From Loxodes magnus (lineage: Eukaryota > Ciliophora > Karyorelictea > Loxodida > Loxodidae), in the NCBI GenBank assembly GCA_946699065.1, contig CAMPDV010000087.1:186001-250000 (forward strand): a DNA stretch of 64,000 nucleotides. The letters run 5' to 3'. How positions within the stretch are numbered: position 1 is the first letter of the stretch; every line of letters starts with the position of its first letter. The notes beneath the pieces were generated by a model. The model worked only from the letters and a program-made list of their open reading frames with translations, was not told the DNA's origin and did no database searches. A program made the translations under genes and the position numbers. This document shows positions 1 through 64,000 of this stretch, piece by piece.

Positions 1-1035
1 AATCAGACATTATATCGATGTTTAGACTCTAGCATAATTAAGTTAATCCTGCAACTGTTACTTTATTTTCTTATTTGTCAGCATATGCAGCAAAAAAATT
101 TTATAAGCTTTCATCTATTGATATTGGCTGAGCGGCAGTTTATTTGGCAGGAGGCTTAGCTACCTTTCCTTGAGTTTTTGCGGTCTATTTTTAAGTGGGC
201 ACTGCAGGTTTTTTATTTTTCTTCATTTTAGAAAGCAAATACCAAATATAAAATAAAAATATATTAAAATTGTTTCAAATAAAAGTAATTATTATCACTG
301 CAGTTATGAGCAAAAGTAGAGAAACAAATAAAAATAAATTTCTTTTGTTCCACCTATTTTAGTTTTGTAGCAGCAATGGTTATTATATTTCTTAGGGTCC
401 CTAAAATATTTCCTGATTTGTCTCTCTTTGCAATTCTCGTGAGTTTAAAGCTTTAGTTTCTTCATATTAGCCTTAAAATAAAGCATATTCTTCAGCATTT
501 TGAAGTTATCTTGCTAGTTATTCATCTTTGTCTTATTATTCCTTTTGAAATTGTTAAAAAACTATTTCTTCCTGATCGAAATTATCATAAAGTTACTTTT
601 CTAAATCTCCTTGCTTTTAATATTTATCAGTAGTTAAATCAGAAAGCTATTAGTTCTCAGAATAGTAAAAATTTTAACTTTATAATGGATTTTCTTAATT
701 AACTTTAATTCCTCCTACTACGTTAGAAATAATAGGTTTTATTGCAGCCTTTTTTTATTCTTCCTCTTACTGTTCTTTAATCTACTTTTAAAAAGTATCT
801 TGATTTTGCTTATATTTTTACTATTATTAAAGCCTATAATCTTCTAGTTAAAAGGAATTCATTTTTATCTTTATGATTTTTTAAGTTTTATTATTTCTTT
901 ATTTAATAAACTTTTTGCTATCTTTAAGTTATTTAAATAATGTCCTCTATTAGCTTTAACGAATTAAAATTCCTTACTATACTCTTTTAGTTAGAAATTT
1001 TCCTTACTGGTTAATACTAATAATTATCATAGTGA
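1..1035 (+). CDS. Multi-pass membrane protein, 3' part only
   Basis: Partial gene whose 5' end lies before the window. The first frame starts at base 3 and gives hydrophobic segments such as SYLSAYAAKKFYK, DIGWAAVYLAGGLATFPW (TGA read as W twice) and AGFLFFFILESKY. A 19-nt intron at 285-303 shifts the frame. The downstream exon then gives further membrane segments (NFFCSTYFSFVAAMVIIF, SLFAILVSL, VILLVIHLCLIIPFEIV). It therefore looks like a polytopic membrane protein with at least five hydrophobic segments. I do not recognise the family. The stop is uncertain: in-frame TGA codons lie at 874-876 and 1033-1035, and the first could still be Trp. After about 900 the composition drifts towards intergenic. 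Confidence 0.45.
285..303 (+). other. 19-nt spliceosomal intron
   Basis: GTAATTATTATCACTGCAG, phase 0. Removing it joins the frame ending ILKLFQIK to LWAKVEKQIK, both with membrane-protein composition. It has the GTAA start and pyrimidine-CAG end seen in the other introns of the window. Confidence 0.6.
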
Positions 1036-1555
1036 TAACAGTCTTTAGTAATTCTTTCATATAACTATATAACTGATTTCCTAACTTTATTCCTTCTCCT
1101 AGCTGGTTAATCTTCTTATTTTAATAGTGTTAGTTTATTACTTACATTTCATCTGCTTTCTTTCTTATTTTTAATTGCATGCTTTTGTATAGTGCAATTT
1201 ATGCCTATCTAGAATAATGCAATATAATCTAAGTTAAATGAAATGATGTAGTTCTAAATAACTAAATTGACTGTATTAATCTCTTAGCAAGTTAAGCATG
1301 CTATTATAAATTAAAGAGCAACCTCTTGCTTATGCTAATTATTATTATAATATGTACTATTAGCCTAAACCTTTAAGTATAGCAGTTCTATTTAACTTAA
1401 GCTAATTATAAAATGTTAGCTGCTCTTATATAAATTAAATGCTTTAATTAATTTAATGAATCAAATAAAGGAATAAGAAGATGGTTGGAGTGATAAAGGT
1501 TATAAGTAAAATTAGAATTTGAAATAATATAAAAGTTCTATAAATATATACCAAA
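1036..1555. other. 3' intergenic region, no gene seen
   Basis: AT-rich DNA between two convergent 3' ends. The frame of the upstream gene stays free of TGA for most of it, but codon use is of the intergenic type, rich in TTA, ATA and TAA. Nothing recognisable. Confidence 0.4.
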
Positions 1556-2869
1556 TCACTTTTTAGCTACTTTCTTTTTGTTTTGAAGAGGCTCGTTATT
1601 CACTTCAGGTTTTTTTGGAGTTTCTCTTGGACTTGGAATAGTTTCTCCCGATTTTCTCAATTGTTCTGTCTGGAAATTATCCTTTTTAGTAGTGTTATGC
1701 TTCTGGTAATCTTTAAGAGATGTTTATTATTAAAGCATCTGAGCTTAGTTCATTTGAAATGAATTTTATTGCTTCTATTAGACTGGATTTTACTCTCTTA
1801 CTCTTCCAAGATGGTCTTTCTTCTAAGCTTAGCTCTATTGCTAATAAACTTATAAGTTACTTTTAATATTCTATTGCTGTATGGTCTAAGAGGTTTAAAC
1901 ATTTTGTGCATTTTCGGTTTAAAACTTATTAGGTTTAGGTTGCTTTGGAGATATTACTTCTTAGACGTTTGATTATGCAAGAGATGAGTTACGTCTACCT
2001 TCAGCCTCGTTGCTTGGAACATCTTCATGCTCTTCATGAACTTATTACCTGAATCTTTATGGCCAAACTACACCATCTCCAACTGGTCTTCCACTTTAAC
2101 CAAAAATCGGCAAAAACCAAAGACAGCCATTTTTCCCAAATACCTAAATCCAGTTACTCCAAACTCCCATATCATAAGAAGTAGTTACTTAATGGTTTGG
2201 CTACTTTTTTTCCATAGATTCAATAGTAGTTGAGTTTTAAACAACTAGAGAAACATGAAATTTGAAGAAAAGGGAAAGCATTACTGTTAGAATGCAACAG
2301 ATTCCATAACTAGACAAAATTAGCACTGAAGGAAAAGCATTTGGACTAGAATCAAAGAATAAATATTAAACAGTTTGATAAACCTTACTAGCCATTGTTA
2401 TATCAACAAAGTAAATTGTTACCAAAGTGTAAAACAATAAAAGCATAAAAAACTTCCTGTTGTAAAAACCCATGCAATTATTAATCCAAGGACAATGGTG
2501 ATCCATATTTAGCACGCATCTATTGCAAGCTGAGCAATGATGACAACGATCAGGTTTGAAAACGTGACACATCAAACAATATCTTCTTCTTTTATGCTCT
2601 GGATCACCCATAAAAAAGCCTCAATAAGGAGGAACTTATCCTGGATCAGTAAAAACAGCTTGAGTAAAAGACCAGAGTAGCATAAAAAGCAGCATATGAA
2701 AAATAACAAGAAGAATAATAGAAGGTATAAAAGTTCCATCATTTTAAAGCATAGGCATTATTGTGAAAAATACATATGGGTAGTAAACAAAGGAAATAAC
2801 CACTATTACGAATAGGACAAACATAGAGCCTGTCAGTCTAGCCATTGTGCAAGGAATTCGAGAGGCCAT
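1556..2869 (-). CDS. DHHC-type protein S-palmitoyltransferase
   Basis: 437-aa membrane enzyme that would attach palmitate to cysteines of substrate proteins at Golgi, ER or plasma membrane. Two N-terminal TM segments (about residues 12-35 and 50-70) lead to PPYWGF, then the cysteine-rich domain CLMCHVFKPDRCHHCSACNR and the catalytic DHHCPWINNCMG. Two more TM segments follow, with the TTIE motif (family TTxE) after TM4. The C-terminal tail is Gln-rich, from many TAA/TAG codons, and ends in KKKVAKK-TGA. The Trp of PPYWGF is encoded by TGA at 2621-2623, while the stop at 1556-1558 is also TGA. One uninterrupted frame of 438 codons. Start ATG in AAATGGCC context. The catalytic residues look intact, so activity is expected by family knowledge. 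Confidence 0.93.
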
Positions 2870-4654
2870 TTAAATAATTATTCAAAATTTAATTTAATTA
2901 TTTAATATAGCATCAAAATGAAAATTCTAGGTAGTTTTCTTAGCTATAAACAAGACTAATAATTCAACTTGTAATCTATCCTATTAATCATAATACTTTC
3001 TATTATACTAGAACCAACTAAATTTCTCAAGCTTAGTTAATTTTTGAAATATTACAGTAATTAAGTGAAAGAATTTCTTGAATGAAGATTGAGATTAACA
3101 TGGAAATAGATATATTTAAATTACATAGATAGTTTAGATAAAACTTAAAAAGAAGGTAGAAACATAAAATAAATATTTATTGATGATAATGATAACTATT
3201 TGAATTACCCAAATATTTTAATATTCCTTTATTAATTATTACTTTTTATCTTAATTGTTTCTTAAAAGCAAACTCTTATTTATTCATCTGGTTATTGCTT
3301 TACATCAAATAAAAATAGACGATCTTATGAAATATTGAATAAGATTCCCTCTGATTATAAAAGTTATAAATAGATATTATTTTCTTATGTTTATAAATTG
3401 CTCTATTTAAATCTAGCTATTATTCACAGCTCTAAGATATTAGTTATCCTAAATTCTTTTTGTAAATAAAGAAGACTAAATTATTTAATTTTTAGCTCTT
3501 ATATCTAAATTAGAACAGAAAGAGTCTATATTTGAATTTAATATGCTAAACTATTTAAGAATGCTATTTAATATAATAAATATCTCTTTTAGCTAATTTG
3601 AGTAGCTATAAGTTGTATATAGATATTTGAAAAATAGATGAAGCTTTATAATAAAAGGTTATTATGAAACTATATTAAGCTACTATAAAAGATATTCTAC
3701 TTAGATCAATTTTATTTTTTATAATTTCTTCTTTATCTTCAGTTATTTATATTTTGAGGGAACATTCAGTAAATATATAATTTGGTGCAGAATGAATTTA
3801 AAATATTTGAACTAATTACTATAATTTGGGAGATTAATTAATTTTAGGCTTTAACTGGAAGAAAAATTTAAGAACTTATTAGGATTGCCAAAAATTAATT
3901 ATATTGTGATTAAATCTGCTTATTCTTTTATCTTTAGGGGCTAGAAGCTATAGTTCATCTGATTTGAGACAGATTTTATAATTTCTAAGTAACTTCACTT
4001 GTTTCTATATCTATAAAGAATTTAATATTTTAATAGGTTTTTTAGCTACCAAAAGATAAAAACCATATATACTTAACTTCGAAACTTTTGCTTTTTTATT
4101 ATAATCATTGAGATTAATAAATAATAATATAACTATTTTAAATTTAAAATGGTTTGGCTCCTATCTGATCAATAACAAAATTTAAGAATTTTTGTAATAA
4201 GGATAAATAAAAGTTACTTAGATTAGCTAAACCATGAAAAACTTAATTCCTTTTTATCTAATTTTATGTATTTCTTCTCAATTTATGAAATTACCTAATT
4301 ATGAATATTGCCCTTTATATCATTTCAAATAACTATTTTATTAATAACTTTTATTATCTGTAAAGAGATACTAATATATAAATGTACTAAAATCAATAAT
4401 TAAAAGTACTAATTCTCTTATTATTTTTAAATTAGAATCTATGAAGTGAAATTAAAAGCTGCTTATATAAAGTAAAAAAGTGCTATTTGTTTATTTAAAT
4501 TGAAATATATGCTTTTATTTAGATAGATATAAAGCATAATTTCTAATTTTAGTGTTAATGAGCAAGCAGCTTTAATCGTATTTTAAAGAAGATAGACTTT
4601 ATAATATAAGATATTATCAATTTTTTATAGTTGTAATAGATGTTATTATTATGA
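2870..4654. other. Intergenic, no supported gene
   Basis: About 1.8 kb of very AT-rich DNA between the 5' end of the DHHC gene and the 3' end of the MLF gene. It should contain the DHHC promoter. A TGA-poor plus-strand frame near 3270-3680 was considered and not accepted. No repeats or RNA genes seen. Confidence 0.4.
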
Positions 4655-7521: not shown

Positions 7522-8604
7522 TCAAATGCTTCCAGTGTTTGACAACATTTCAAAGCTTAAAACCTTAAGAGCTTCCATAGCATCTATTCTGTTATTTACA
7601 TCTATTACTAGCATTTTTGTTATCATTCAAGTCAGCATTTCAGAGAGACCTTCTAGTTAAGCATGCTTTTTGATATCAAAAGAGTTATTGTACAATTTAA
7701 CATAGTCTTCTTATGTGGATAAGTCACTAAGCAATTTCTGACCTGTTAATAGATAAAGAATTGTAACTCCTATGCTTCAAATATCTATTTTATTACTTTC
7801 CTGTTTTCTAAGTATTTCTTCAGGTGCTTGAAAATGTAGACTATTAGAGTTATTAAGAGAGTTATTCAAGCAATTTTCTACTTAGAAATAATTAGAAATT
7901 TTAATTTACTACAAACTTTTTTCTTTTTTACTTACAAGCTAAATACTCTTAGGGTTTATATTTTTATGCGTAACTCCATTCCAGTGCATATAAGAGCAAG
8001 CTTTCAGCAATTGATACGCAACACCCTGAATTTCTCGCTCTGAAAAAAATTAATTATTTTCTTTTCTTTCATTTATAAATTCCTGCAAGCTTCCTCCTTC
8101 GTAGTATTCCATAACTAAGTAATAGCAATTACTTTAGCGGAAATATTCTTCAAGCTAAATTATATTTGGGTGAATAAAATTAAGGTATTATTGCATTTTT
8201 TCTTTAAATGAAGACTCATTTTCAAGTTGTTCTTTTTTTATTTCTAGAACTTAATATTTGCTTTTGTTCTAAATTTTTTGAGCTATGTAGCTAAATATAG
8301 GAGTCAACTCAGTACTCTATCTATGCATCTCTCTTTATTTTGGAACGTAATAAAACTATTAAAATTCTTTAGGATTTAATTGGAGTCCTCGTTTGGCCTC
8401 CGAATTTTAAGCATCATTTTTTTCTTCTGAGTAATTTTCTTCTGTTTAAATTTCATGTGCCAAACTTAAATTTAATTTAGGTATAGAAATTTGATCAGAT
8501 TCTACTCTATTAAGTATTTCCTTTCTAAATTTGTTTCCATTCTTTTTGTTTTTTGGACTAAAATCTGTAGTGCCTTACTCTTATTTGCAAATTAAGCTTC
8601 CCAT
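7522..8604 (-). CDS. Protein kinase-like protein, probable pseudokinase
   Basis: 360 aa. The N-terminal 110 residues are polar. A kinase fold then follows: VLEIKKEQ in the place of the beta-3 lysine strand, HPNIIQLEEYF (helix C to beta 4), YYLVMEYYEGGSLQEFI (hinge), YMHWNGVTHKNINPKSI (catalytic loop), FQAPEEIL (APE), NKIDIWSIGVTILYLLTG (helix F) and NNRIDAMEALKV (helix I). The catalytic HRDLKPEN is replaced by HKNINPKS, so the proton-acceptor Asp is lost. The DFG position reads IKISNYF, and there is no glycine loop. It belongs to the CAMK/NEK-like part of the kinome by layout, but should be inactive. The Trp of DIWSIG is TGA, and the stop is also TGA (7522-7524). Confidence 0.82.
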
Positions 8605-8658
8605 TTTAATTAATTAAAATAGACTATAACACTTAAATTTACATAATATATAATCAAG

Positions 8659-23448: not shown

Positions 23449-26400
23449 ATGGATTATGTCAAAAGAAATTTCCGTAAGATAAAGGAACAATTTAAAGCTC
23501 TTTATTGTCAGCATGTTAAGGATATAGACGAAGTACAAACCGAGCTACTTTAAAGAAAAACTCTAACTTTCTTTACCCTTTCATTCAATCTTTCATTGGT
23601 AATTACAGTTATTGTTATTGCCATTTATATTGTGCAACTTAGAAATCTACATGGAACGTAATTAGCTTTGCTTAATACAATCCTGTAACTGATTGTAACT
23701 GGACCCATTCTGATTATAAAAACAGGAAGTATATCTATAAGCTATTTCTTTTTTCATTTAAGTTTCTGCTTTTCCTGCTTTGTTTTAGCTATAGAAATTC
23801 CTGATTACACCATAATTGCTGGATTTTGGCTGACAATTTCAATATTATTTTTTATATTTCTAGTAAGAAGTTAGAAGCTAATCATCCTTCTTTTTGCCAT
23901 AACGATGGCTTTTTACTATCTATGTATTAAAAATTTCTACGAGAAAGAGTATTGATAGATAGAGGAACTTTATAAGATTAGATTAGATTTGCATAATCAA
24001 TTTTGATATCAACTCCTGCTTTGTCTATGTCCTGTAATAGTTTTTGTTGTTGCCTTCTGACTAAACAATTTTAACTAGGAAAATTTAAGATTCTTGAATG
24101 AAATTATTATTCGATAAGATCAGTTCCAAAAAACTAAAAATGCATATATGGCTGCCATGAACCATGAATTAAGGAATCCTTTGAATACTATTTTGGGAAG
24201 TATCGAAGTACTATAATCTTAAAGTGATCTATCTGAGAGTCATGCATAACTTATAGAGATGATATCTTGCAGTGGAGAAATTTTGCTAAACTAAGTAAAT
24301 AATGTGCTGGATGCTGAGAAAATAGCAGCTGGCTAGTTTAATATTGTTAAAAATCCTGCTTAAATTAGAAGAATTTTATGGGCAGTTGTCTAATCAAAAA
24401 TTCCAAAAGCTTTAGAAAATTCAATTGAATTAGAAACAAAGATTAGTCCTTCAGTGCCTAAATGACTTTCTTGTGATTAAGTGAAGATTCAGCAAATATT
24501 AATGAATTTGATTGGAAACGCTATTAAGTTTACTTAGGAAGGAAAAGTTTAAATACTTATAGATTGAAATCCTAATTTAGACTCCAGCTCCTAATAAGAT
24601 CTTGATTAAGAAAAAGAAGAAATCTAAGCTGACAAATGGAATCTTCATTTAGCTCATTTCCAACTTTAGTACAATTATAGTGAAAATGAGTTTTAAATAG
24701 TAGCATAAAAGGGATCTCCTTCATGGAAGTAATGAAGAAACTCCTATAGAAAAAAAAGTTATGTTAAATACTAAAACTAAAAAGAAATCTAATAAGAGTT
24801 TTCACTTAATCTAATATACTCTTAGTCCTTAATTGGCAAAAAAATTAAAATCAAGCAAAGAAACAAAAAGGATTACAATACGACGTCGCCTTTTGATATT
24901 AATGAAGAAGAAGCAGACGTTTTAGTTTAAAAAAAGACTAAAAGTTAAAATGTTTTCTTTTAAAATGAAAAAGAAATTACATTAATAAATCAAGAGTGTT
25001 ACTCTAGAATCAATTTATAGCCATAAACATAAGGACAACCAATACAAGATTAAAAAATTTTCTCATTTTTTGAACCCGATAAAAATATTAAGGGAGAGAA
25101 TACTCCTTCTTTCGAGAAGTAAGACAACAATTAAAAAGAAGTGGATGAAAAAGAAAAAAATGAAAAAAATAGTTCTTCATTGTAGAAGAAATAAAAAGAA
25201 AAAGAAAAAGAAAAAACTAGAAAAAAGCGTTCTACAATAATAAAGCAAAATATAGTAGTTAATAAAGCTTTAATATAATACAAAGTAAACAAAAATTTTC
25301 CTATACTTTATTCCTAAGGTAATGAAAAATAAGGAAAACTTACGATTTAGGTAATAGATTAAGGCATAGGCATTACTCATGAAAATCAATAAAAGCTCTT
25401 CAATCCTTTTGTTTAAGCTAATGAAAAAATATCTAACAAATTTGGAGGAACAGGACTTGGACTGTGAATCACTAAGTAAATTCTTGAGTAACATGGAGGA
25501 TAAATAGAGCTTGAATCTGAAGTTGGAAAAGGAAGCAAATTTAAAGTTACTCTTCCATTAGAAGTAATTTAAGAAGTGGAGGCTTTAGAAAAAATAAAAG
25601 AAGATTAATTTTTTGTGGGTGAATAAAAAGTTCTATTAGTTGAAACAAGTCAACATGATTTAAAATAATCTACCAAAATCTTAGAATCTCTTGGATGTGA
25701 AGTTACTTCCAATCTCTGCAGTTAGGAAGCATTTTAAGCTTATGCATCAAAAGGAATGAATTTTTATGATCTCATTCTAATAAATGAAAAACTTGATGAA
25801 ATTCACGGAATTAATCTTTTCTAGAAAGTAATTGACTATGAAATCGTCAATAACTGAAAGTAAACTCCTATTGTTCTTATGACTAAAAACTTGAATAATA
25901 TCAAAAAACTAGAAGCTATAGAGCTTGGCCTTTTAAAAGTAATACCAAAGCCAATAAAGCCTAAAGAAATATACGATTTGTTCGCCTAAATTAAAAGGGA
26001 AAAAGAAGAAATGCAGGAAATAGTAAACAGAACATTGAGTAGTTTTCTTAGCAAATCATAAAGCAATTTATTTACAGTAAGAAACTTAATAATTATAATA
26101 GAGGATGATAACTTTTAAGCTATTGTTTTAAAGAGCTTGATGCAAAGCGTAAGCGATAATTATATATTCTAAACATTTAATGATATAACTTAAGAACAGC
26201 TAAGGGAATATATATATTTGAATCACTAATAAATCCTCTTAGTTACTACTGATTGGGAACTTCCAAGTTTAAGCGGACTTGAAGTGATAAAAACAATACG
26301 ATAGTGTGAAAAAGATAGCTAGCAAGAGTGGCTATCTTATTAGGGACCTATCAAAATAATAGTATGTTCTGGACACAATGACCAATAAAAAATAAATCTT

Positions 26401-26472
26401 TCCAAATAATATGGAGCAAATGATTTTATTGTAAAACCGATCACAATGCAAAAGATAAAGGCAATCTTATGA
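23449..26472 (+). CDS. Hybrid sensor histidine kinase with two receiver domains
   Basis: 1007 aa in one frame. An N-terminal block of about six TM helices (residues 38-215) leads to the H box AAMNHELRNPLNTILG (His239, the phosphorylation site). The ATPase domain has an N box QQILMNLIGNAIKFT (about 350-364), a G1 box VIDQGIGIT (about 636) and a G2 box KFGGTGLGLWITKQILEQHG. Between N and G1 lies an insertion of about 240 residues, very rich in Lys, Glu, Gln and Asn. Two receiver domains follow. REC1 (from about 731) lacks the acceptor Asp (LILINEKLDEI) but keeps the Lys. REC2 (from about 880) has IEDD, Asp935 in VTTDWELPSLSG and the VKP lysine, so it looks competent. It would relay phosphate from His239 to Asp935 and onwards to an HPt protein not seen here. 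Stop TGA; seven or more internal TGAs read as Trp, one in GLGLWITK. Confidence 0.95.
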
Positions 26473-31568: not shown

Positions 31569-32123
31569 TCATTTCTTTTCCACTAAGAATTTCTCAATAT
31601 CTTCCTCAATTCTTCTTGGCTCGAATTTTGGTCCAAAATAAGTTGCGAAAGTTCCATCAGGATGAACTAAAAACTTTCCAAAATTTCATCCTACTTGTTC
31701 TGCGATTTCGTCATGTGTATGAAGTCTAGAATTTTTTCTCAAGAACTTAAAGATGTCTGCAGCATTTTCACCGTTTACATCAACTTTGCCAAACATTTGG
31801 AATTTTGCACGGAATTTCGTTTTTGCAAAAGCTGAGCAAGTTTCATTATTTCCAGGCTCCTACCGTGCAAATTAATTACATGGGAACGCCAAAATTTCAA
31901 ATCCTCTTGGCTATAGTTTATCATGTAATTAAACCAGCTAAGTATATTGATTATCAGTTAAACCGCACTTCGAAGCCACGTTCACAACCAAAATTACGTT
32001 GTTTTAGAATTATTTCATTGATACAATGTCTCCATTAAGATCAACCACATTATCAATATCCCAGAAATTAGTGAATTTAGTATGTACATCGTCCGATTTA
32101 CAACTAGCACAAGTTCCACCCAT
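31569..32123 (-). CDS. Glutathione peroxidase / thioredoxin-dependent peroxidase (Cys type)
   Basis: 184 aa, usual family length, no targeting peptide. Family blocks in order: VVNVASKCGLTDNQYTQL with the peroxidatic Cys53, GFEILAFPCNQFARQEPGNN with resolving Cys and the catalytic Gln, KFQMFGKVDVNG, and VGWNFGKFLVHPDG with the catalytic Trp and Asn. It would reduce hydrogen peroxide or lipid hydroperoxides in the cytosol; as a Cys enzyme it likely uses thioredoxin. The catalytic Trp146 is encoded by TGA (31686-31688), and the gene ends FLVEKK-TGA. TGA is not selenocysteine here, because the peroxidatic codon is TGC. This gene alone shows both meanings of TGA. Confidence 0.95.
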
Positions 32124-32474: not shown

Positions 32475-33248
32475 TCAGAAAGCTTTAAGTTCGAATTGCA
32501 AATCTCTAAAATCAGTAACTTCTTGAATTTCCTGTTTATGTAAAAATTTGCATAGTAGACTTAAAAGCTAAGAAAAGATTAATTTTGATTCTTGAGATCC
32601 CCAAAAAACTATTTTTTATTCTTCACAAATGACTACTCCACTCTAATTTTGTACTTCACTCAATCCAATTTCATTCATATCATTCTGATTTATTCCAAAA
32701 ATAGCTTTCTTAGGATGTTTTAGAAACTGTAACTAATTCATGAATCCTAAATTTGGATCTACTTGAGGACGTTTCGATTAAAGAAATGTAACTGCTTCAT
32801 TTTCATCCAAATTCTAGGTTTGCATTAGTCAAGCTGCAACCAAAGTAGGAGCGCGGGATTTTCCCTACTCACAGTGGATTAGAATTTTACCTGATGAATT
32901 TTAGACTAATTAAATAAGATTAAGAGCATACTCTATAGCTAATAAAACACTATTCTTTGCACTGTCTTTTAATGATAAGTTATGATACTCGAATTCTTCT
33001 GGATATTTGTTCTGGTATTTATGACTAACTGTATTCAAAATGTGAGTGATTTTATTTTACCTCAAGGCTTCTAAGTTGCATGCAGCAGAATAACCAGAAA
33101 TAAATACGAACTTATTCACTTCAGTTAAGCGATCTGGCTAGTCTCCAACTGATTAAGATCTATAAATAATATCTCCTTCTAAGTCAGAAGTTGGTAGTAT
33201 TACTTTTAAAGTTTTTCTGACCTTTTTAGACTTTACTTCCATTTACAT
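32475..33248 (-). CDS. Dual-specificity protein phosphatase
   Basis: 257 aa. The phosphatase core runs from KFVFISGYSAACNLEALRQN (substrate-depth strands) through ITHILNTVSHKY and YHNLSLKDSAKNS to the active-site loop ILIHCEQGKSRAPTLVAAWL (HCx5R complete: nucleophilic Cys and Arg present) and on to ALTFLQSKRP-type helices. It should remove phosphate from Tyr and Ser/Thr of kinase substrates. A C-terminal extension of about 70 residues follows (GINQNDMNEIGLSEV). Two in-frame ATGs lie six bases apart (33248 and 33242); the longer reading is given. Stop TGA at 32475-32477. The 350 bases between it and the peroxidase start hold no gene. Confidence 0.88.
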
Positions 33249-34099: not shown

Positions 34100-36023
34100 T
34101 CAAATTTTAAAATCTTCTAAAGTTTCTATCAAATCTTTCTTTTCCTTTACAGGATTCTCTGACACTTTAACACCTGTTTTAGCTGGAGGAGGAGTCAACT
34201 TTTTAAGATTTTGCTGCTTTATAGAAGTTGTATTTTAAGCTATGTCAAATTGTATTTTAGGTGCTTATGCTTGTTATTGTTTTTAAGCAGGTAAACTCTG
34301 AAATAAGTCAAATTGTAGCTAAGGAGCTTATGCTTGCTGTTGCTTTTATTGTTATGGAATCTAACTAGATTGCTTTTAAGTTTATTACCCAAATAAGTCG
34401 AATTCAATTTATTAATCTTAAAAGCTTTATTATTTATAATGTTTTTCCCAGAAACTACCCATAGGAGCGTTTTATTACATCTTTTGAGATGGGCTTATTG
34501 TCGCAAATAAATCAGGCATCTAGTTACTTTAAATTTTGTTTTGCTGAACTTCGCTACTTTGACTAAATAAATCAAAGATATCTTCTTTATTTTTAGATGG
34601 TGGTTAAGTTGTATTCTAATTGGTAAAATTTTAAATTTCTTTAGGGGCATCAAATATCTCCTCAAATAAATTTAAGTTTGTGACTATTTTCTCTTTTTAC
34701 TCTTATTTAGTCTATGGAAATTTAATTTGCTAGAAAGGATCTTAGATTTGGGATTATTGCTTATTTTGAGGATTTTAAAAAAGATCAGTGAAAGTGTTCT
34801 CTTAATTAGCTTAGTTTTGAGGTGGGAAAGAAAATAAGTCAATATTTTCCTATTATTGGACATTTTAAGTTTAGAAATCAAAAAGATCAAGTTTTTCCTG
34901 CTAGGTTTTTTGTATTTAACTCTATTATGGTTATTATTAAAAGAGATCCAAGTTTTTATCTTCTTGTTACTAACCTACTTCGTTAAATATATCCATTTGT
35001 TGTTGTTATTAATTAGAAATAGGAGCAAATAAATCTTGTTAAGGAGGATTATTGCTCTGGTAAGGTATTTCGAGAAAATTTGCGAAATCAATTTATTAAA
35101 CTAATTTCTTCTACTAATTTTATTGCTAAGCTGTGCTAGATTCCGATTGATTCATTGCTTTAACTTCTTTTTTTTGTTAAATTTGCTCTTATTTTGGTTT
35201 TTTCATGCTAGTATTTTGTGCTGCTGTACTTTGGTTTTATTTCTTTTATTTTGAAGGTTCGATATATCCTCCATAATGTTATCCTCAATTATAATCATTG
35301 AAACCAGTAACTTATTATATACCTTAATCACTTGAAACTCCATAAATTTTTTCATTTATAGTATTTTTAATGCCCTGATATTTATCTCCTATATTTGATA
35401 CGGTTTCTGATGTAATTTCAGTAATTCTAGACGCAATATTTTGTAAAGAAGTTTTAAAACCTGCTTCAATCTTAACTTCACTTCTCACATATTTTTAATA
35501 ATCCTCAGGTTCATAGATTTCTTCTGCTTCTTCTCCTTCAATTTGTATCTTCTACATTTTTTTCTTAGCGTTTTCTCTTTCTATTTCTAATTTTTCAGAA
35601 TGTACTAATAAATCAACAACGAATGCTGCCTTATCTCTCACTGAATTATAACTTACCTCCTTAGCCTCTTTCTATTCCGTCATCATTATAAGCAAAATCA
35701 CACAAATTCTTAATGAAAAACATATGATCTTGAGCAGAATCAATAACAGTGTCAGGTCCAAGCTTAATTAAAGTTTCGAGAAGACAAAGTGCTTTATACA
35801 ACTTCTTTCATTCCCTTGCATGAAAATTGCATAGTTTGCCTCATAAAAACTCCATAATAACAGGATAATTTATAGAACTGTGACTTTAATTTGCTATTTC
35901 TTATAAAGTTGAAGCAGATAATCCATAATTATCATCCGATATCGTTTAATTCAATTGTTTTTCTAAAGGAGAAGACCAAAACTAATCCTTTATTTTAGCT
36001 TTAGCCTTTTCTAAGAATTCCAT
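34100..36023 (-). CDS. Epsin-like clathrin adaptor (ENTH domain)
   Basis: 635 aa from two exons. Residues 1-150 form an ENTH domain: MEFLEKAKAKIKDQF, TISDDNYGLSASTLQEIA, NYPVIMEFLWGKLC, KALCLLETLIKLGPD and GIERGQGVRDKAAFVVDLLV, which bind phosphoinositide and bend membrane. The Gln-rich tail holds at least seven DLF or LFD-type motifs (QDLFAP, LDLFQQ, LDLFDF, IDLFSF, TDLFQN, FDLFSQ, PDLFAT, FDLFGQ, FDLFQS), one DPF, and a clathrin-box-like NLNLFEEIF. Such motifs bind the AP-2 appendage and clathrin. It therefore should link membrane, adaptor and coat in endocytosis. Most tail glutamines are TAA or TAG. Ends TLEDFKI-TGA. Confidence 0.92.
35641..35656 (-). other. 16-nt spliceosomal intron in the epsin gene
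   Basis: GTAAGTTATAATTCAG, phase 1. Splicing restores the conserved ENTH segment DGIERGQG-VRDKAAF (compare epsin GxxxGxNVRxKAK). Unspliced, the frame is lost in the middle of the domain. Confidence 0.88.
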
Positions 36024-36412: not shown

Positions 36413-38176
36413 TCATTTTTACTATTCTTTTTCTTGCTCAACTATTTGCATTTATATTACTGAAGTTGGACTAAAAACAGCAAGTTCTTGTACTTCCAAT
36501 TCAGTATATTCTTGTAATTCTCTTTAATTCATATTCTAGACTTACTAATCTTAAGCTTAAATATGGTTTTGAGTAGAATTTCGCTATATAGGACGTACAT
36601 TCAATACTTGTGAGTTTTGCATATTTGAAAATTACTGAGTTTGTTCAATACTTTGCATTCTTTAGCTTTCTATAGGTTCTTCTGATAAATTTATCACTTA
36701 ATCGCCTCTTTATTATCTTTCTTCTTCTCCATTTTCATCAGATTCCTAGCTATTTTATGAAGAGTCTGAATCCTACTCTAATCCTGAGTTTCCACCGCTT
36801 TCACTCTCTCTTTATTGTACATTTCTTACTTCTAAAAAATTTCTATCTTCTTGGTTATTTAATGCCAATATGTTGATGTTATGCTAACTATGATTTTACA
36901 TGTTTCCTGATGCTTCAGTTCTAATTGACTCTTAATGGAACTACTATATTTCTTAATTTTGCTTTGTACAGCAGAGCAAACATGAAGGAATAAAACTTCA
37001 ACTTTTTTTCATTTGAAACTAAATAACACTTCTTCCTAATTAAACTAAATTTAGATAATTACTTGAGAAGTTTGAATGAGGCCCTATTATTACTGGCTTA
37101 CGGAGTTAAGCCAAAGTTCCAAATTTACTATCATGATCTTCTAGATAAAAATCTCCTTAATTTAAGTTTATAATAGCATGAAGTCTACTCACTGAAATGT
37201 CGCTTATTCTCACATCACTGTCGTGACCTCTTCCTAATTTAATATCACTTTTGTTTTGCAATGAAATCATATGCAAACTTCTTGTAGCTTAATTTTCACG
37301 GCTGAGTGCTTCTAATATAATGAAATCTGAATCTGGTTTAGGAATTTCTATTAGATCTATATGTTTTCCCTCGAGATTGACTACTGAAGGATAAGAAACT
37401 TTGCACAATTCACAGTCTAAGTTTTTTCAAAAAAATGAAATAGAACTTCCTGATTGTTTCATCTGTAAACGATTCTTAAGTCATTATTAAAGGCATTTTA
37501 AATGGATAGCTCTCATTGTTCCTGAGCATTTACAAGGAGTTATCAAAGGATTTTCTATTGTATATTTTTCATATCAGCAAATCCTGCATGGAAACTATGA
37601 AGTTAACTCGGCGTCTGATTTACTAAATAATTTAAATACTTACACACTATTTTCTTAGTCATAAGCACAATTCGTCTAAAATTAATTGGATATTTTTTAG
37701 ATTTCTTGCTAGGGTTTATTTTGGCTATTTCTTCTTTCATTATCTCCATGCTTTTGTTATTTAAATTTAGTTTAAATTTCCTTAACGCAGTATTTCACCC
37801 TTCCAAGCTTGATAATTTCTCCTTCCCCTAATTTATATCCTCTAATGTTATTTGAGCTTTTTATAGACTTTACTACTAGTCATAGCTTTTCTACATAAGC
37901 ATACTCAGCCTAGTATAAATGAAAACGGCCATCTATTAATCTTAAACAACAGAGAACTCTACCTCCACTTTAGTTGAGGTGATCTGCTAGATTTTCATGA
38001 TCATAAATTACTGAAATTTCATTTCCTACTCTGATAATATTACAATCTACTGAAGTCCTTAATTATTTCTTTACAACATTCTTGGATTCATAATCAAACA
38101 ACCCATGAGAGTCTCTCTACCACGTGGTTGTCTTCAATATAATCCTACAATAATAAACTTACTATCCTTAGCTCAT
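36413..38176 (-). CDS. RING-CH (MARCH-type) zinc finger plus FHA domain protein
   Basis: 587 aa in one frame. Residues 30-140 form a beta-rich region (CNIIRVGNEISVIYDHENL, RGYKLGEGEIIKLGRVKYCVKEI) that itself resembles a divergent FHA fold. A RING-CH finger follows: CRICWYEK, TPCKCSGTMRAIHLKCLQQW and NLDCELC, i.e. C-C-C-C-H-C-C-C ligands, the E2-binding type. Then comes a clear FHA domain, IKLGRGHDSDVRISDISVSRLHAII and GDFYLEDHDSKFGTL, which binds phosphothreonine. The tail is acidic and Ser/Gln-rich. It looks like a ubiquitin ligase recruited to phosphorylated proteins. No TM helices are seen, unlike animal MARCH enzymes. Start at ATG AGC TAA; stop TGA. Confidence 0.88.
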
Positions 38177-50687: not shown

Positions 50688-52624
50688 ATGAGCTAAGAAG
50701 TAGGCGATACTCAAATTAAAAAGAATGAGGCATAAGCGTAGGAAAATGAATAATAAATAAATAAGTTAATTGAGGAACTAACTGGTAAAAAGTTGCTTAG
50801 CCCAATCTAATCTACGTTATTTTCAACTTAGTCCTAAAATCAAGTTTCTTCAAATACTAATGAATTGCAGCAAAATTAGAATGAGGCAGCTTAAACTATT
50901 CAGATGATTCAATAGCCAAGCAAAATATTAGAGAAGAGAGCATCAACTAGAACATTCTCTCAAAAACTTTCATAAAAATCAAGAAAATCTACAAGATAAT
51001 CTTTCTAAATTTATAACGAAGATATATCAGCCAATAGATTTTTTCACTTAGTTCAATAAAACGAATATGAAAAATTAAGAGTTGCAGAGACAGTTTGCGC
51101 TCTTGTAGCACTAATAAGTGTTGTAACAAGTGCAATAAGTTAAGATATTGTATTTACACATACTAATTTAAACAAAGATGGATGGGATTGAATCAACGCT
51201 ATTGGGACTCATAAAGATGTAGACTTTATAATTTCTTATTTTCTTATTTGTCAGACTATTTTGACCATTTAGCTTGAAATAGCAATAGTATGAAGAACTT
51301 TTAAAACATTACAGTGATAGAAAAGCAGAGGAGAAATAGGGTAGAAGTTAACTCTAATGTCATCAGGAATGTGAAAGTATCTGCTATTTGAAATGCTGGT
51401 TAATTTAATACATCCTATTTATTTTCTAAAAGATAAAACTTTTTTAAATTATAGCCCTCCTTTAGGCCACGAAGTTGAATACTAATGCAATGAACCTTTA
51501 GATATTCTAATATGTATTCGACTTTATCACTTTATACGTGTGATCCTCCATTTATCGAAGTTTAGAGGTCATAGAACTTAAAGAATTTGCGACTTGAATA
51601 ATACAAAATAATCAAAGATGTTCACTTTGAGATGTATAATGAAGGAAATACCAAATACGATAGTTCTATTAGCTATGGTTATTACTATTATAGTTTTTGG
51701 CTATTTTCTTCATATATGTGAAAGGTCTTATTGGAATATCCCTAATGCTAAAGATTTTGGCAATTTGAGTAATGCAATGTGAAATATTATTGTCACCATT
51801 GCTACAGTAGGATATGGAGATTTTTATCCTGTTACTACCTCAGGAAGATGCGTAGTTTTTGTTGTTGTCATTTGAGGAGTTATGCTTGTATCTACTATGG
51901 TGGTTAGTGTAACTAATACTCTAGAAATGGACTCAAGTGAGAGAAGAAGTTACTTTATTATCAAAAGAATTGATTTTAAACATAAAATGAAAAGCAAAGC
52001 TGCTACTTTAATAAGTTTAGCTGCTAAAATAAAAATACTAATGAAGAAAAATGCCAGCTAGCAAAAGATAGGCATCTTTCTAGGAAAGTTTCTAAAAGCT
52101 AAGACAGATTTCAAAATGCTAAAAACGTAAGCTGTTTCTATTTCAGAGATTTGAGATCCTTATATATGTAAGGAGATTCAAGCGAAATTACTAATTAAGA
52201 TTTATGTTTAGTTAGGACTGAAATAAGCAACCTTCAAAAAAGTGTTGATTAGTCTATAATGGAAATATAATAGTAGCTCAAAATTATACTAGGAGAAGCT
52301 ACAGATTATGAAAAGAGAAAATCGATAAATTATTCTTGAAACACTTTCTATTTTGTTGATCCTATATTTAATATTATCCACTTAACTAGACTTTATCTAT
52401 AGGCTTTAAATGCTGCTTATTTCTAAATTAATAGCTAGAATTCATTATCTTCTATCTTAAATTAGTTTCCAATCCTCTTCTAATATTCTTAAATTAAGTC
52501 TTCTCCTATAGATAATCTATTCTCTATGCCAATTAAAAATATCTATATTAATGCAGAGTAGTTAGTTTCCCTAAAACCTACTAAATAAAAGATTGAGAAG
52601 TTATAGAGAGACTATAGGAAGTGA
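50688..52624 (+). CDS. SK-like six-TM potassium channel
   Basis: 638 aa after splicing a 20-nt intron. The N-terminal 130 residues are polar. S1 (VCALVALISVVTSAI), S2 (FIISYFLICQTILTI), S3 (YLLFEMLVNLIHPIYFL), S4 (ILICIRLYHFIRVILHL, few charges as in SK channels), S5 (IVLLAMVITIIVFGYFLHI), the pore NAMWNIIVTIATVGYGDFYP, and S6 (CVVFVVVIWGVMLVST) follow. The filter TVGYGD (about residues 373-378) shows K+ selectivity. The layout matches calcium-activated SK channels (AMWxIxxTFLTIGYGD), where calmodulin binds just after S6. A coiled-coil segment (TEISNLQKSVDQSIMEIQQQ) and a Ser/Gln tail end in DYRK-TGA. The pore Trp is TGA (51780-51782). It would set membrane potential, which governs ciliary beating. 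Confidence 0.92.
52127..52146 (+). other. 20-nt intron in the K+ channel gene
   Basis: GTAAGCTGTTTCTATTTCAG, phase 2. It restores the frame from KMLKT to DLRSLYMQGDSSEITNQDL and the coiled coil. Confidence 0.82.
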
Positions 52625-54425: not shown

Positions 54426-55701
54426 ATGGAAGAAAGTAATTTGCATATTACCTTATAGCTCATTGAAAAGGAAACTAATGAAGAACCTGAAATGTAGACT
54501 GACTAGTCCAATTTAACTTCAGCAAACTTGAATTACTAAGAAGCGTAAACTACTGAAAGTGATTGTCTAAGTGATGCATCATTCGCTTTTACTTCTATGT
54601 CTGTACTGTCCCCTGAAATAAGTAGAAGTCCCAGTCCTAATTTACGTAACTTGAAAAGAAAAGGAAGTGTAGCAAAAGCTGAAAAAGAAAAGAAGTTTAC
54701 GAGACATACTTATCTTTGAACTGCTAAAGAAGATATTAAGCTTCAAGAACTAGTAAAATAGCACAAAACCAAATGAACTAAGATTGCAAACGAACTTAAT
54801 AAGCTATTTCACAATGGCTAGCCAAATCGTACTGCTAGAATAGTAAGAGAAAGATATAAAAACTATGTAAACCCTAATATTTCTAGTAACTTTCTTTACA
54901 TACAGAAACTAATTGGAGTTTATAAGAAGATTTAATATTGCTAAGCTAATAAAAGGGTATTGGAAACAAATGGTCAAAACTTGCTGTGTATTTATAAGGT
55001 AAGTCTTTTTAATTACATAGGGAGAACTGAAAACTAAATAAGAAACAGATGAAATAGTCTTATAAACAAGGTTAGCAAGGGTAACGAAAATTAGGCTAAT
55101 TAAGAAAAAATAGTCGAAAAATTGATATAGAAGATTAATATAGAAATGGCTAACGAACAAATTTTTAACAAAAGAGAAGGACAAGATATTGATAATCTTC
55201 AACTTGAATACTCTCCACTATCCAAAAAGCGTAATATAGAAGATTATTAATTTAATTGAGAGTAGCCAACAGAGGAATAGGAGAAGAATAGAGATAGATG
55301 CTAAACTATTTCTAACTTAAAAGCACAGGAAAAGACAAGTAAAAACTAAGGATTCTAGACAGTAGAATAAATTGTAGAAAATAAATATATAAAGTAAGAG
55401 GTGAAAATAGAAGACGGAATAAAATAAGACCAGTACACTTACTAAAATTAAATTAATTAATATTAGTACTTTGATCAAGCAGAAGAAGATCTCGAAAGAG
55501 ATATATATCAAGATCTCGATTGATAGCTAAACGAAGGTAACTTGCTAAGTCCAGTTAATATAAATGATTTTGGATTTAATAAAAATTAATGCAATTAAGA
55601 CTAATTAGATATATCCAATAATAAGGAGACGGAAATGGATTACTACTTCAACATAAACGATCTTATTCTTCCAGATTGTAATTAAATAACATACTAGTTG
55701 A
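54426..55701 (+). CDS. Myb/SANT DNA-binding protein
   Basis: Two Myb repeats after splicing two introns. Repeat 1: LWTAKEDIKLQELVKQH, TKWTKIANELN, GQPNRTARIVRERYKNYVNP. Repeat 2: NWSLQEDLILLSQQKGIG, NKWSKLAVYLQGRTENQIRNRWNSL. This is the R2R3 layout of Myb transcription factors, whose third helices (RTARIVRERYKN, RTENQIRNRWN) contact DNA. Of the three or four Trp per repeat, two in repeat 1 and one in repeat 2 are TGA (for example 54717-54719). An acidic/Gln/Asn-rich tail of about 250 residues follows and could activate transcription. The stop is uncertain: coding-like sequence ends near 55680 (LILPDCN), but the first TGA in this frame is far downstream, so a 3' intron is likely. The end given is approximate. 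Confidence 0.87.
54886..54905 (+). other. 20-nt intron in the Myb gene
   Basis: GTAACTTTCTTTACATACAG. Splicing joins repeat 1 (NPNIS) to KTNWSLQEDLILL, the start of repeat 2. Confidence 0.85.
54999..55020 (+). other. 22-nt intron in the Myb gene
   Basis: Starts GTAAGTC and ends ATTACATAG. Splicing joins KLAVYLQ to GRTENQIRNRW, restoring the recognition helix of repeat 2. It is the longest intron found here. Confidence 0.87.
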
Positions 55702-57424: not shown

Positions 57425-57615
57425 TAAGCAATTAATTAATAACAATATTCTTCCTTTTTAAATCAAGAAAGCACTAATTTTATAGCAAGTAGCTTAAATC
57501 TTATTATAATTTGTTCAATAAAGAGACTAAAATAACAATCAGCAATACTCTAACTTTATATAAAATAGCTTTTTGTAGATACTCCTGCTTAATATTTAGA
57601 ATTATTAGAACAATA

Positions 57616-58569: not shown

Positions 58570-58644
58570 TAAGAATTAATCTATGAATTTGAAATTTTTT
58601 ATTTGATTATCTAAATTCTAAGATAGAGTTTCTCAATTAAGATA

Positions 58645-60487: not shown

Positions 60488-60988
60488 TTATAAAATTTAT
60501 TAAAGAAGAATATTTCCTAACTAACTTTCCTTAAAATCCTTTATCCTTTACCTATATCATCTTTAGTCTATATAGGCAACACTCCTATATTACCTTTCAC
60601 TACAAAATGTTACTCAGCTATAATCACTAATAGTTGCTTAATAATATGTAATTTGTACTAGTTTACCTATCTATTTATTATAGTAACACTCTATAAATCA
60701 TAAAACCCTTTCACAATATTACTTATTTAACCTGACTATCTTAGTATTTAATTCAACAAGTTTGAGCTCTTTATTGAGGGAGAAAGACTTATATAATAGT
60801 AGTGCGAAAAGATAAAATATGGAATAGCAGTATCCTTATAAATAAGATGCTTATTTAAGTTTATCTTATTTAATCTATTTACCTATTTTACTTTGCTTTA
60901 ACTAATATTTACCACTTTTATTTCTACTGCTCCTATATTAAATATCCTGTATCATATCCTTTAAATTCTAGCGGTATGCTTATTATAT
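60488..60988. promoter_or_regulatory. Divergent upstream region
   Basis: 500 bases between divergent starts of the repeat protein and the CDK-like kinase; it should hold both promoters. AT-rich, no motif recognised. Confidence 0.35.
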
Positions 60989-62104
60989 ATGTAGTAAGAA
61001 GCTTTAAAGGAAGGAACTTTAATCTAGAATAAATATAAAATTATAAAGAAAGTAGGGAAAGGAGCATATGGCGCTGTGTACAAAGCTCTAGACTTAGAAA
61101 ATAATGAAGTGGTAGCTTTAAAGCAGATGTTTGTGTTTGCAGAATTATAAGGAATTCATCATTCTACACTAAGAGAAATTTCAATTCTCCAAAACTTCAA
61201 GCACGAGTATATAGTTAATCTTTAAGATGTTATAGTAGAGTAAAAATAATAGAGCTACATTATCTATTTGAAATTCTAGTTTCTTGATCAAGATCTTCAA
61301 GAATATCTAAGCAACACTTAATTCGACTTAGATGAAACCAAAGTTTTCCTTTACGAAATTTTATTAGCTTTGAATTATTGCCACTATCATGGAATTTTTC
61401 ATAGAGACTTAAAGCCTTCTAATATTATGGTTGATATGCAAAAATCCAATGAATTAAGACTCTTAAGTAAAGGTTATAAAGTTTGCCTTAGCGATTTTGG
61501 ACTTGCTAGACCAGTTAATATTCCAATTAATCCTATGACAAAGGAAATATAAACAATTTGCTATAAAGCACCTGAATTACTTTTAGGAGTAGATAAGTAT
61601 AGCTTAGGAGTCGATATTTGAAGCTTTGGATGCATAATGGCTCAATTTTATCTTAGAGATTTTCTTTTTTATCCTGATTCAGAGTGAGAACTAATTGTCC
61701 AAATTTTTAAGCTATTTGGAACTCCTGGAGAAATATAGTGGGAAGGAATAAAATAAAACTTATACTGAACAAATAATTTTCCTTAGTTTAAACCCTAAAA
61801 CTTGCAAGAGAAATTCCCATTAATGGACAAGCAAGCTCTAGATCTATTCATTCAACTTATGTAGCTAGATCCTCAAAAAAGAATCTCAACTAAATAAGCT
61901 TTAAATCATCCTTATTTTAGTTTAATTAGGAAAAAGGATAGAGAATTGCAAAGTTTGAGTACAAATCTATTCTATTCAAAGGAGTCAGTTAAAGGTCTTT
62001 AAAGCATACTTGAATAGCAAAGTATTATAAGCAATAATTTTCTAAAGACTTAAGATGAAGAGACATTAGAAGAATAGAATAAAATGGAGTAGACAACTAA
62101 CTGA
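60989..62104 (+). CDS. CDK-type Ser/Thr protein kinase
   Basis: 371 aa. All catalytic elements are present: glycine loop [12 protein letters not shown], beta-3 lysine VVALKQM, a helix C in the CDK style ([14 protein letters not shown], where CDKs have PSTAIREISLL), HRDLKPSN (Asp140), SDFGLAR, activation-segment end [24 protein letters not shown], and [18 protein letters not shown]. It resembles CDK/CDK7/CDK10-type kinases that need a cyclin partner; the family usually has a YRAPE. The C-terminal 60 residues are Gln/Glu-rich. TGA encodes Trp in DIWSFG (61619-61621), SEWEL and LYWTNN; the gene ends QTTN-TGA. An insertion before DFG ([14 protein letters not shown]) is longer than usual. Confidence 0.94.
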
Positions 62105-63028
62105 ATAAAACTATTTAACTAATTAAAGATATAAAATTCCACTTCTAGCAATTATCAAATGTACCTTTAAATGACATTCCTTCCTACTTCATTTTTATAT
62201 TCCCTCTATTTTCATTTAACATTATCACAAATTATAAATTTAAAGCTTTAATAACTTTACTAAAGCTAATCTAATCCCTTAAAAATAAGATAATCATAGG
62301 CAGTCAACTTCTTTTTATAGAGTGATAGATAAGGATATTATTGACTAGTGCAGCTAACTAATTATTTAAGAAAGAGAAAATTAAAATATGTGACGTTTTG
62401 ATTAGAGTGTAGCAGTAAAAGTAAATAGATGCTGTTTAATTAGTTAGATTTTTAGCCATTAATTAAACAATTTTAACTACTTAAAAGAAGAATAGCTTAT
62501 ATGAATCTTTTATATAAAACATTACTATTACTAGCTTAAAAGACAGCTGAACCTATCTAATTAAATTTAAAACTCTATTAGTATTTACTTAATACAGAAG
62601 ATAGAACTACAATTTAATAGCTTATATCATTTTAATTAATAAAATAAGCTAATTAAAGTAGCTATTTTAAATCAAGATGCTTCTAGATAAAGAAAGGCAA
62701 TACCTATTAAAACAATAATTTATTTTTATGAGCAAGAAAGCTGCTTTTGCTATGAATTAAATTTATTTATTTTATAATATAATGGTATTAAAAGAATCTT
62801 AATCAATGAAATAAAGTAAGGCTATTTTATATAGGGATATAAAAAAGCCTTTTTAATATTATATATTATAAATTAAATATAGAGATAGATGTATAATTCC
62901 TTTAGATCTATAATCTTCCATATATCAATTTAACTCTTAATAGAGTTAGAACTAGTAATAGAGTAGCTTAAATAAATAGTTTATTCCTATTAATTTTGAA
63001 AAATAGATTAATGTTGGAACAGATATGT
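62105..63028. other. Intergenic between convergent genes
   Basis: AT-rich, many AGCT words (three in 62641-62760), no CpG in that stretch. No gene seen. Confidence 0.45.
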
Positions 63029-63436
63029 TCATTTTTCTACAGTTACCCTTTTTCTCAGCAAATTACTTTTGTTGAGAGAGTTTAATGAAAAATTCTATCT
63101 CTTAATTCCGTCTATCAACTTAATTTGAGGTTTATTTGTCACTTATTTTGATTATTTTTCTTTCTGCATTTATTACAAATCTCCCTATCGAGGTTAAATT
63201 GGGTCTTTACTGACCACATAAATAAAGGTTTCATTAAGGAATATGCTGTGCCTAACTTTTTCTACTATTAAATTTTTAGCAGGTGCTTGACTATTATATC
63301 AGAATACTTTAGATTTTCTTCTCTCTTGTCTTCTTTATATCTGTTGCTAGTTTTCTTGAATTACATTGCTATAACTTTCAGACAAATATTTTTTATTTGT
63401 TACTATCTTGAGTTTGCTAGGAGATAAAGGCTTCAT
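63029..63436 (-). CDS. Small basic hypothetical protein
   Basis: 135 aa, strongly basic: MKPLSPSKLKIVTNKKYL, QRRQERRKSKVFWYNSQAP, KLIDGIKRQNFSLNSLNK, LLRKRVTVEK-TGA. One internal TGA (Trp). A clean start, 136 codons in frame and a TGA stop, with GC above the flanks, support a real gene. No family recognised; could be a nuclear or microtubule-associated protein. Confidence 0.6.
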
Positions 63437-64000
63437 ATTTTTATTTATATTTATAAGTAAAAAACATAATGAGGAGTTAAGATTATTTTATTAATGCTAT
63501 TTTATTTATTCTATACTTGTTTTTAAAAAGAAATTTGTCCATACTCATCAAATACTTATAACTAATAACTTTCTTTCAAATATTTATTTTACTGATTATT
63601 TCGCTAGTTAATCTACAGGAGCTAGCTTAAAATATATTTTAGCTAATTATTTTATAATTATTGCTCTATACATTGGAAATTCCTTTCTTTAATATGCTCT
63701 TTTAACTTTAATTTAGCTTTAACTTTGGCTTGTTTATTGCATTATCACTAGATATTAATATTGCTTCTTCATTTTTATTTTAATAATACTTATCTAGAAA
63801 TTAGTTATTTATTTCGTTTAATTAGTTTAAATTGCAAGAATAAGCTTAGCAACTTGCAAGCAAGCTCTAGTAAAGTTAGCTTTATTAATATTTAAAGCAT
63901 TATTAATGTAAAGTATCTGATTTCTGTCTATAACTTTTAGCTTTAAGTATAATTTAAGTTTCTTATTACCATTAATTTAGTTTCTTTCATTTCATACTGC
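63437..64000. other. AT-rich intergenic end of the window
   Basis: Promoter region of the 63436 gene, then low-G DNA with repeated TAAGC/AGCTT words. No gene seen. Confidence 0.4.

Follow-up and report, generated by a model that had tools for sequence, protein, structure and literature searches.

The codon UGA was analysed in a 64,000-nucleotide stretch of the macronuclear genome of the karyorelict ciliate Loxodes magnus (C87:186001-250000, on GenBank contig CAMPDV010000087.1; hereafter the window) and in related genes of the whole assembly (705.7 Mb in 7,843 contigs). The window genes fit NCBI translation table 27, with UAA and UAG (UAR) read as glutamine (Gln) and UGA serving as tryptophan (Trp) and as stop in the same genes, a reading which is supported by the alignments and codon counts given below. 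We are highly confident that this is karyorelict macronuclear DNA using code 27, with UGA as Trp or stop and probably also as selenocysteine (Sec) in a few mRNAs. At the level of sequence, the use of UGA as Trp and as stop was found, together with arrays of tRNA-Trp genes, genes for tRNA-Sec, SepSecS and SPS2, and TGA codons at Sec sites.

The Trp/stop ambiguity of UGA in Loxodes has been published before, and nothing of a new kind is contributed by the window; the macronuclear assembly of L. magnus is described as 706 Mbp in size and assigned to table 27 (Proc Natl Acad Sci USA 2024, PMC11441545). A first-pass annotation of the window, made from its letters, had proposed the same code, which fits by homology and matches the published Loxodes code. 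A paper on the Loxodes code is also said to have appeared in Peer Community Journal in 2022.

Tryptophan, stop and glutamine codons

Genes were modelled with our own small generalised hidden Markov model, which was seeded from TrxR and SepSecS codons, retrained on the window and accepts TGA as the sole stop. From the resulting 29 models, 24 were kept, and the model of the DHHC gene was lengthened manually; one model cut by the edge, one antisense to the DHHC gene and three judged doubtful were dropped, these five holding 2 of 55 sense TGAs. The kept genes comprise 11,598 codons, with 54 TGA, 48 TGG, 743 TAA, 269 TAG, 309 CAA and 93 CAG. Given that TGA is as frequent as TGG and UAR outnumbers CAR (CAA or CAG), about half of the Trp codons are UGA and most Gln codons UAR. 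The kept models contain three introns, of 16, 16 and 29 bp; the published L. magnus genome has similarly tiny introns, with a length mode of 17 bp, and shows no difference from the window in its code (PMC11441545).

Seven window genes (DHHC, GPx, SK channel, Myb, CDK, RINGv and ENTH) were aligned to solved structures and the residues opposite TGA were read by eye; the tally covers these seven, with the histidine kinase and the DSP phosphatase among the genes outside it. Within the aligned stretches there are 17 TGAs, one of which is opposite a gap. Eight of the remaining 16 face Trp in the best match and four face Phe or Tyr, so that 12 of 16 are at aromatic residues; the binomial probability of eight or more in 16 on Trp is about 1e-11 to 7e-9, assuming a Trp background of 1.3-3%. 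This argues for UGA being read as Trp at internal positions.

In the first-pass annotation, TGA had been placed at an invariant family Trp in at least five genes. All five codons named are present at the positions given there, as TGA on the forward strand at 51780, 54717 and 61619 and as TCA on the forward strand (TGA on the reverse) at 2621 and 31686, and the genes are recognisable as open frames with strong Pfam matches when TGA is translated as Trp and TAA and TAG as Gln. The invariance itself is supported by Trp in the best structure match for GPx, the SK pore and CDK; it is mixed for Myb, with Phe in the best match and Trp in WER, and it does not hold for DHHC, where the opposite residue is Lys. 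Of the three aligned Myb TGAs, the second and the third, which come after position 54717, are opposite Trp. In the window GPx gene, the Trp TGA is situated 39 codons ahead of the stop TGA, and the codon for this Trp (of the WNF motif) is TGA also in the GPx locus L022 and TGG in L020 and L023.

All 24 kept genes end at TGA, which is no proof of UGA being a stop since no other stop is allowed by the gene finder; independent evidence comes from homology. TGA was found at the family C-terminus in 12 of 14 loci of the actin family (14 examined of 96 genome matches, two being without a clear C-terminal anchor), in 4/4 GPx loci and in 4/4 distinct TrxR loci. Across the 24 window genes, the GC fraction is 0.308 over the final 60 coding nucleotides and drops to 0.194 over the 60 nt that follow the stop. 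These observations point to UGA being a stop codon as well. For UAR, Gln sites of ubiquitin were found to be written with these codons in all eight loci read, and in-frame UAR is present in all 150 scored ubiquitin matches (of 1,235 candidates), which independently shows UAA and UAG to be Gln codons.

Actin gave about 40 full-length matches with near-equal scores, on contigs C266, C711, C437, C707, C524 and others, and ubiquitin units form large tandem arrays on C32, C537, C2553 and C930.

Putative selenocysteine genes

Outside the window, a third meaning of UGA, as Sec, is probable in the TrxR loci L028-L032 and in the SPS2 genes L072 and L073, on contigs C15 and C134. The machinery for Sec use appears to be present in the genome, as judged from one SepSecS gene, two SPS2 genes and three loci that exceed the cut-off for tRNA-Sec, a call with which ARAGORN agrees. 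Among 49 weaker tRNA-Sec matches, two were scanned and both were tRNA-Ser. A further tRNA gene (L072:573-643; RF00005, E 4e-11) is located close to the SPS2 gene on contig C15.

Six TrxR-like loci were found, five of which (L028-L032, representing four distinct paralogs, with two loci being near-identical) end in Gly-Cys-TGA-Gly-TGA. The first TGA of this ending faces the cysteine (Cys) of the GC-x-G ending in the alignment with mammalian TrxR, a residue which we take to be Sec in the natural enzyme. In SPS2, G-TGA-GC is present in both copies at what is presumably the Sec site of the family. TGA would thus occupy the presumed family Sec site in five of six TrxR-like loci (GC-TGA-G) and in two of two SPS2 genes. 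GPx was rejected as a selenoprotein, all four loci being of the Cys type, and of the two Rdx loci (L067 and L068), L068, a SelT, was read by eye as Cys type as well; with Cys forms in four of four GPx loci and in the one SelT read, Sec use looks narrow.

The 110 nt past the stop were folded and compared with 60 shuffles per sequence. For the six Sec genes (four TrxR and two SPS2, which make up two families and are not six independent cases), z-scores between -2.08 and -5.83 were obtained, as against z above -1.7 in all 24 ordinary window genes; the value for L030, -2.38 in this comparison, was -1.94 in a separate run, in which 8 of 200 shuffles were as stable. In TrxR, paired bases reach as far as 96-106 nt past the stop; the corresponding distance for SPS2 is 74-75 nt. 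GTGA, a 5' quartet of the type seen in the Sec insertion sequence (SECIS), is found 35-37 nt past the stop in all four TrxR paralogs, and UGA/GA quartets were seen by eye in the SPS2 hairpins.

A backup stop in Sec genes was also considered. An in-frame TGA follows three codons past the TrxR stop in 5/5 loci, and none is found within five codons in the 24 window genes; this feature is not claimed, given that five of the 12 anchored actin-family loci also have a second TGA, four of them from one subfamily.

The TrxR gene L032, on contig C332, would use UGA in three senses within one open reading frame. Its TGA codons are 48, 83, 93 and 402, aligned as Trp, 490 at the Sec site and 492 as the stop, and it contains no TGG; codon 402 is opposite Trp in TrxR1 and opposite Phe in TrxR2. 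Each of the other three TrxR paralogs writes two of its Trp sites with TGA (409 and 399 codons ahead of the stop) and the rest with TGG. The putative Sec UGA of SPS2 precedes the stop by 335 codons, and every one of the three Trp codons downstream of it is TGG. The TGA after ...IIEV was taken as the SPS2 stop because the hairpin starts directly behind it; the gene finder continued to a TGA nine codons on, inside the hairpin. TGAs at codons 9, 13 and 15, present in both SPS2 copies ahead of the alignable part, were excluded from the Trp count.

If, as the protein families suggest, a UGA that precedes the stop by 90 codons is Trp in L032 and one that precedes it by 335 codons is Sec in SPS2, distance alone could not set the meaning. 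We consider it an even chance that UGA has all three senses in L032 and that neither the distance to the tail nor that to the SECIS decides alone, with the type of SECIS or the local context also contributing, as in TrxR of Euplotes. If the whole hairpin is contained in the mRNA, the TrxR stop would be at least about 96-106 nt away from the mRNA end, compared with a published median 3' untranslated region of 41 bp in L. magnus (mean 53 bp; PMC11441545); the hairpin, once folded, might nevertheless place the poly(A) tail close to the TrxR stop.

Decoding and the choice between sense and stop

A tRNA scan and an Rfam family scan of the 64-kb window gave no match. Genome-wide, one exact pattern for tRNA-Trp(CCA) gave 124 matches (52 forward and 72 reverse). 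The 100 matches listed are in tandem head-to-tail arrays on two contigs, C67 and C148, the repeat units being about 187 and 241 bp long; the arrays span C67:482321-491198 and C148:155462-169423, and the loci L037-L066 come from C67. ARAGORN identified tRNA-Trp(cca) in all three C67 loci scanned. Reading by eye of the C67 copies, whose loci overlap, suggested an anticodon stem of four pairs with an A27-C43 mismatch in 449 of 449 readable matches, so that the CCA anticodon and the 27-43 mismatch of tRNA-Trp with a 4-bp stem appear to be present. The same pattern with the anticodon changed to UCA gave no match in the genome. A tRNA-Trp with a 4-bp anticodon stem has already been tied to the reading of UGA, and Loxodes has been cited as having such a tRNA; the CCA anticodon and the four stem pairs are shared with this precedent, and the present analysis adds the tandem arrays, with 124 matches. 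An eLife critique reportedly concerns tRNA-Trp.

The eRF1_1 family gave three matches, two of which (L070 and L071, 35 kb apart on C196) are eRF1-like by eye and without sense TGA. They carry the motifs RAQNIKS and FLCENTF, for which we take TASNIKS and YLCDNKF to be the human eRF1 counterparts.

It had been predicted that coding TGA is absent close to the stop. In the window, none of the 54 sense TGAs is within the last 20 codons, where 2.27 would be expected (P=0.097, not significant alone). Adding the actin, TrxR and GPx sets, none of nine Trp codons within the last 20 codons is TGA (TGG in 9/9), compared with 77 of 166 further upstream (TGG in 89/166; Fisher P=0.005, a value overstating independence as eight of the nine are one actin position). 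The direction of the prediction was thus recovered, and its significance in the window alone was not. In the actin set, Trp at 21-60 codons from the end is written TGA in 4 of 12 cases. For L. magnus at large, depletion of coding UGA and UAA is described for about 20 codons ahead of the stop (PMC11441545).

We propose that UAA and UAG are decoded as Gln and that the default meaning of UGA is Trp, the most likely decoder being the abundant tRNA-Trp(CCA) with its four-pair anticodon stem. Close to the 3' end of the mRNA, eRF1 would outcompete tRNA-Trp, making UGA a stop. Where the stop is immediately followed by a SECIS-like hairpin, as in a few mRNAs, one UGA would probably specify Sec.

If the internal TGAs were artefacts, stemming from pseudogenes, faulty assembly or short introns that escaped recognition, UGA would be only a stop, as in ciliate code 6. 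This view could draw on the introns of 16-29 bp in the gene models, inside which a TGA could in principle sit. However, the TGAs opposite Trp are flanked on both sides by gap-free aligned residues, TrxR paralogs differ in writing one and the same Trp as TGA or as TGG, as do those of GPx, and TGA matches TGG in frequency; we give this explanation hardly any credence. The reverse proposal, that UGA is always Trp and termination occurs at UAA/UAG or at the mRNA end, would agree with sense UGA being frequent, but it conflicts with the many UAA and UAG codons in frame across the 24 genes, with the actin, GPx and TrxR frames having a TGA where the proteins of their families end and with the fall in GC directly past the terminal TGA, and seems just as hard to credit. 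Sense and stop UGA might instead be separated by local sequence, such as the base that follows, and not by how near the mRNA end is. The base following UGA (+4) is A31 G10 T7 C6 at sense and A10 T10 G3 C1 at stop codons, a modest difference in plain counts; no base is confined to one class, however, the 3' flank is AT-rich anyway, as reflected by its GC fraction of 0.194, and mRNA-end proximity was favoured for Condylostoma and Parduczia in the account of Swart et al. (2016; PMC4967479). Local sequence as the separating signal is therefore rated as unlikely.

Against a role of Sec, the TGA before the last Gly of TrxR could be an ordinary stop, with TrxR ending in Gly-Cys in an organism without Sec. 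The gene finder does halt at this penultimate TGA in all four TrxR paralogs, and the sixth, divergent TrxR-like locus, L033, is without the GC-TGA-GG-TGA ending. On the other hand, this ending is conserved in the other five loci, TGA is at the presumed Sec site in both SPS2 copies, tRNA-Sec (three loci over the cut-off) and SepSecS are present, the folds past the stop in six of six Sec genes exceed those of all 24 ordinary genes, and the GTGA is at a near-constant distance in four of four TrxR paralogs. An organism without Sec is accordingly judged to be very unlikely, and Sec at the penultimate TrxR codon is preferred.

Several results weigh against the reading of UGA as Trp, stop and probably Sec, those on SECIS bearing on the Sec sense and favouring an organism without Sec. 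Searching with Rfam cmscan revealed no SECIS in nine loci of GPx and TrxR (E limit 5) and none in the four TrxR and two SPS2 genes (E limit 10), the sole strong match being the tRNA in L072. A covariance model built from three TrxR hairpins recovers its own three sequences and misses the fourth paralog (L030); run unfiltered on L030 and both SPS2 genes, it gave weak scattered matches, the best (E 0.028) being off the hairpin and none convincing in SPS2. Finding its own sequences alone, the model provides no independent support for SECIS. Four of the 16 aligned TGAs face a non-aromatic residue (Met, Ile, His and Lys), and the clustering of the last-20-codon Trp codons at one actin position counts on the same side. 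A search for a suppressor tRNA-Gln(UUA/CUA), with a single hand-written pattern, gave nothing convincing, with five matches (four of them one identical repeat) compared with one for the reversed control. Finally, the decoding by tRNA-Trp(CCA), the 3'-end rule and the insertion of Sec itself are what we infer from sequence.

Window features, precedents and meaning

The TGA-bearing genes and sites of the window are compiled below. For the kinase at 7522-8604, no structure match was obtained at the strict cut-off.

Table 1. Genes of the window with in-frame TGA and individual TGA sites (positions within the window).
Feature	Position	Strand	Remarks
DHHC palmitoyltransferase gene	1556..2890	-	Pfam DHHC 1e-34; ends at TGA 1556-1558
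In-frame TGA, DHHC PPYW	2621..2623	-	Outside Pfam domain; faces Lys in ZDHHC20; not an invariant Trp
Protein kinase	7522..8604	-	In-frame TGA in DIW motif (by eye); model ends at TGA
Hybrid histidine kinase (HisKA, HATPase, response regulator)	24148..26472	+	5 sense TGA
Glutathione peroxidase, Cys type (NVASKCG)	31569..32123	-	Pfam GPx 6e-39
In-frame TGA at conserved GPx Trp (WNF)	31686..31688	-	Trp in best PDB match
Dual-specificity phosphatase	32475..33248	-	1 sense TGA; model ends at TGA
ENTH/epsin gene	34100..36023	-	Intron of 16 bp predicted at 35637-35652; TGA opposite Trp of ENTH at two sites
RINGv-FHA gene	36413..38176	-	One TGA opposite RINGv CLQQW Trp, another opposite His
SK-type K+ channel	50688..52154	+	Pfam ion channel 2e-11; 6 sense TGA; stop TGA 52152-52154
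In-frame TGA at SK pore AMW Trp	51780..51782	+	Trp in best PDB match
Myb protein	54426..55523	+	Pfam Myb 9e-14; 4 sense TGA, three within aligned Myb region
In-frame TGA at first Myb Trp	54717..54719	+	Phe in MYB21 (best match) and MYB24; Trp in WER (third)
CDK-like kinase	60989..62104	+	Pfam kinase 4e-57; 3 sense TGA facing Trp, Ile and Tyr; stop TGA 62102-62104
In-frame TGA at kinase DIW Trp	61619..61621	+	Trp in best PDB match (CDK)

The gene model at 40873-48653 (2,584 codons) is coiled-coil-like by eye and rich in UAR-encoded Gln; a Pfam scan of 878 of its residues gave no match. At 9614-10561 this ciliate encodes a protein with an MCP-like PDC sensor domain, in addition to the hybrid histidine kinase.

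For Condylostoma and the karyorelict Parduczia, the 'codon triality' of UGA was named by Swart et al. (Cell 2016, PMC4967479), who described the TrxR Sec codon as lying just before the SECIS. UGA as Trp, stop and Sec, with the TrxR Sec at the penultimate codon, would be common to Loxodes and Parduczia sp./Condylostoma magnum as described there. Beyond that account, Loxodes would contribute a single open reading frame with UGA for Trp, Sec and stop, two SPS2 genes whose Sec codon is far upstream, and six 3' flanks that are folded in comparison with ordinary genes. In Condylostoma, UAA and UAG are reported to be able to terminate as well (PMC6879139), whereas here both were seen as Gln only.

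In TrxR of Euplotes crassus, Sec is described as being restricted to the C-terminal region by the SECIS, with UGA otherwise being Cys (Turanov et al. 2013, PMC3737529). The likeness to Loxodes would be that a SECIS in the mRNA of a ciliate turns only a chosen UGA into Sec, the other UGAs being read as a standard amino acid; unlike in Euplotes, where UGA is Cys and not a stop, it would be Trp and also stop in Loxodes. Amoebophrya sp., a relative of dinoflagellates, is reported to read UGA as Trp and probably as Sec in selT, selM and selO, with tRNA-Sec as the only UGA tRNA found (PMC6394959); Trp and probable Sec are thus shared with Loxodes, and the Sec genes are different. The main text of the L. 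magnus paper (PMC11441545) contains no word beginning with 'tRNA', 'selen' or 'eRF1', and our literature search found no paper on Sec in Loxodes.

For the question of how the ribosome picks between reading and stopping at one identical codon, the wider genome offers a good natural test case. The question is sharpened by L032, in which one codon separates the putative Sec UGA from the stop UGA and the hairpin seems to hold the stop off the poly(A) tail; from a model based on distance alone, Trp or partial readthrough would be expected there.

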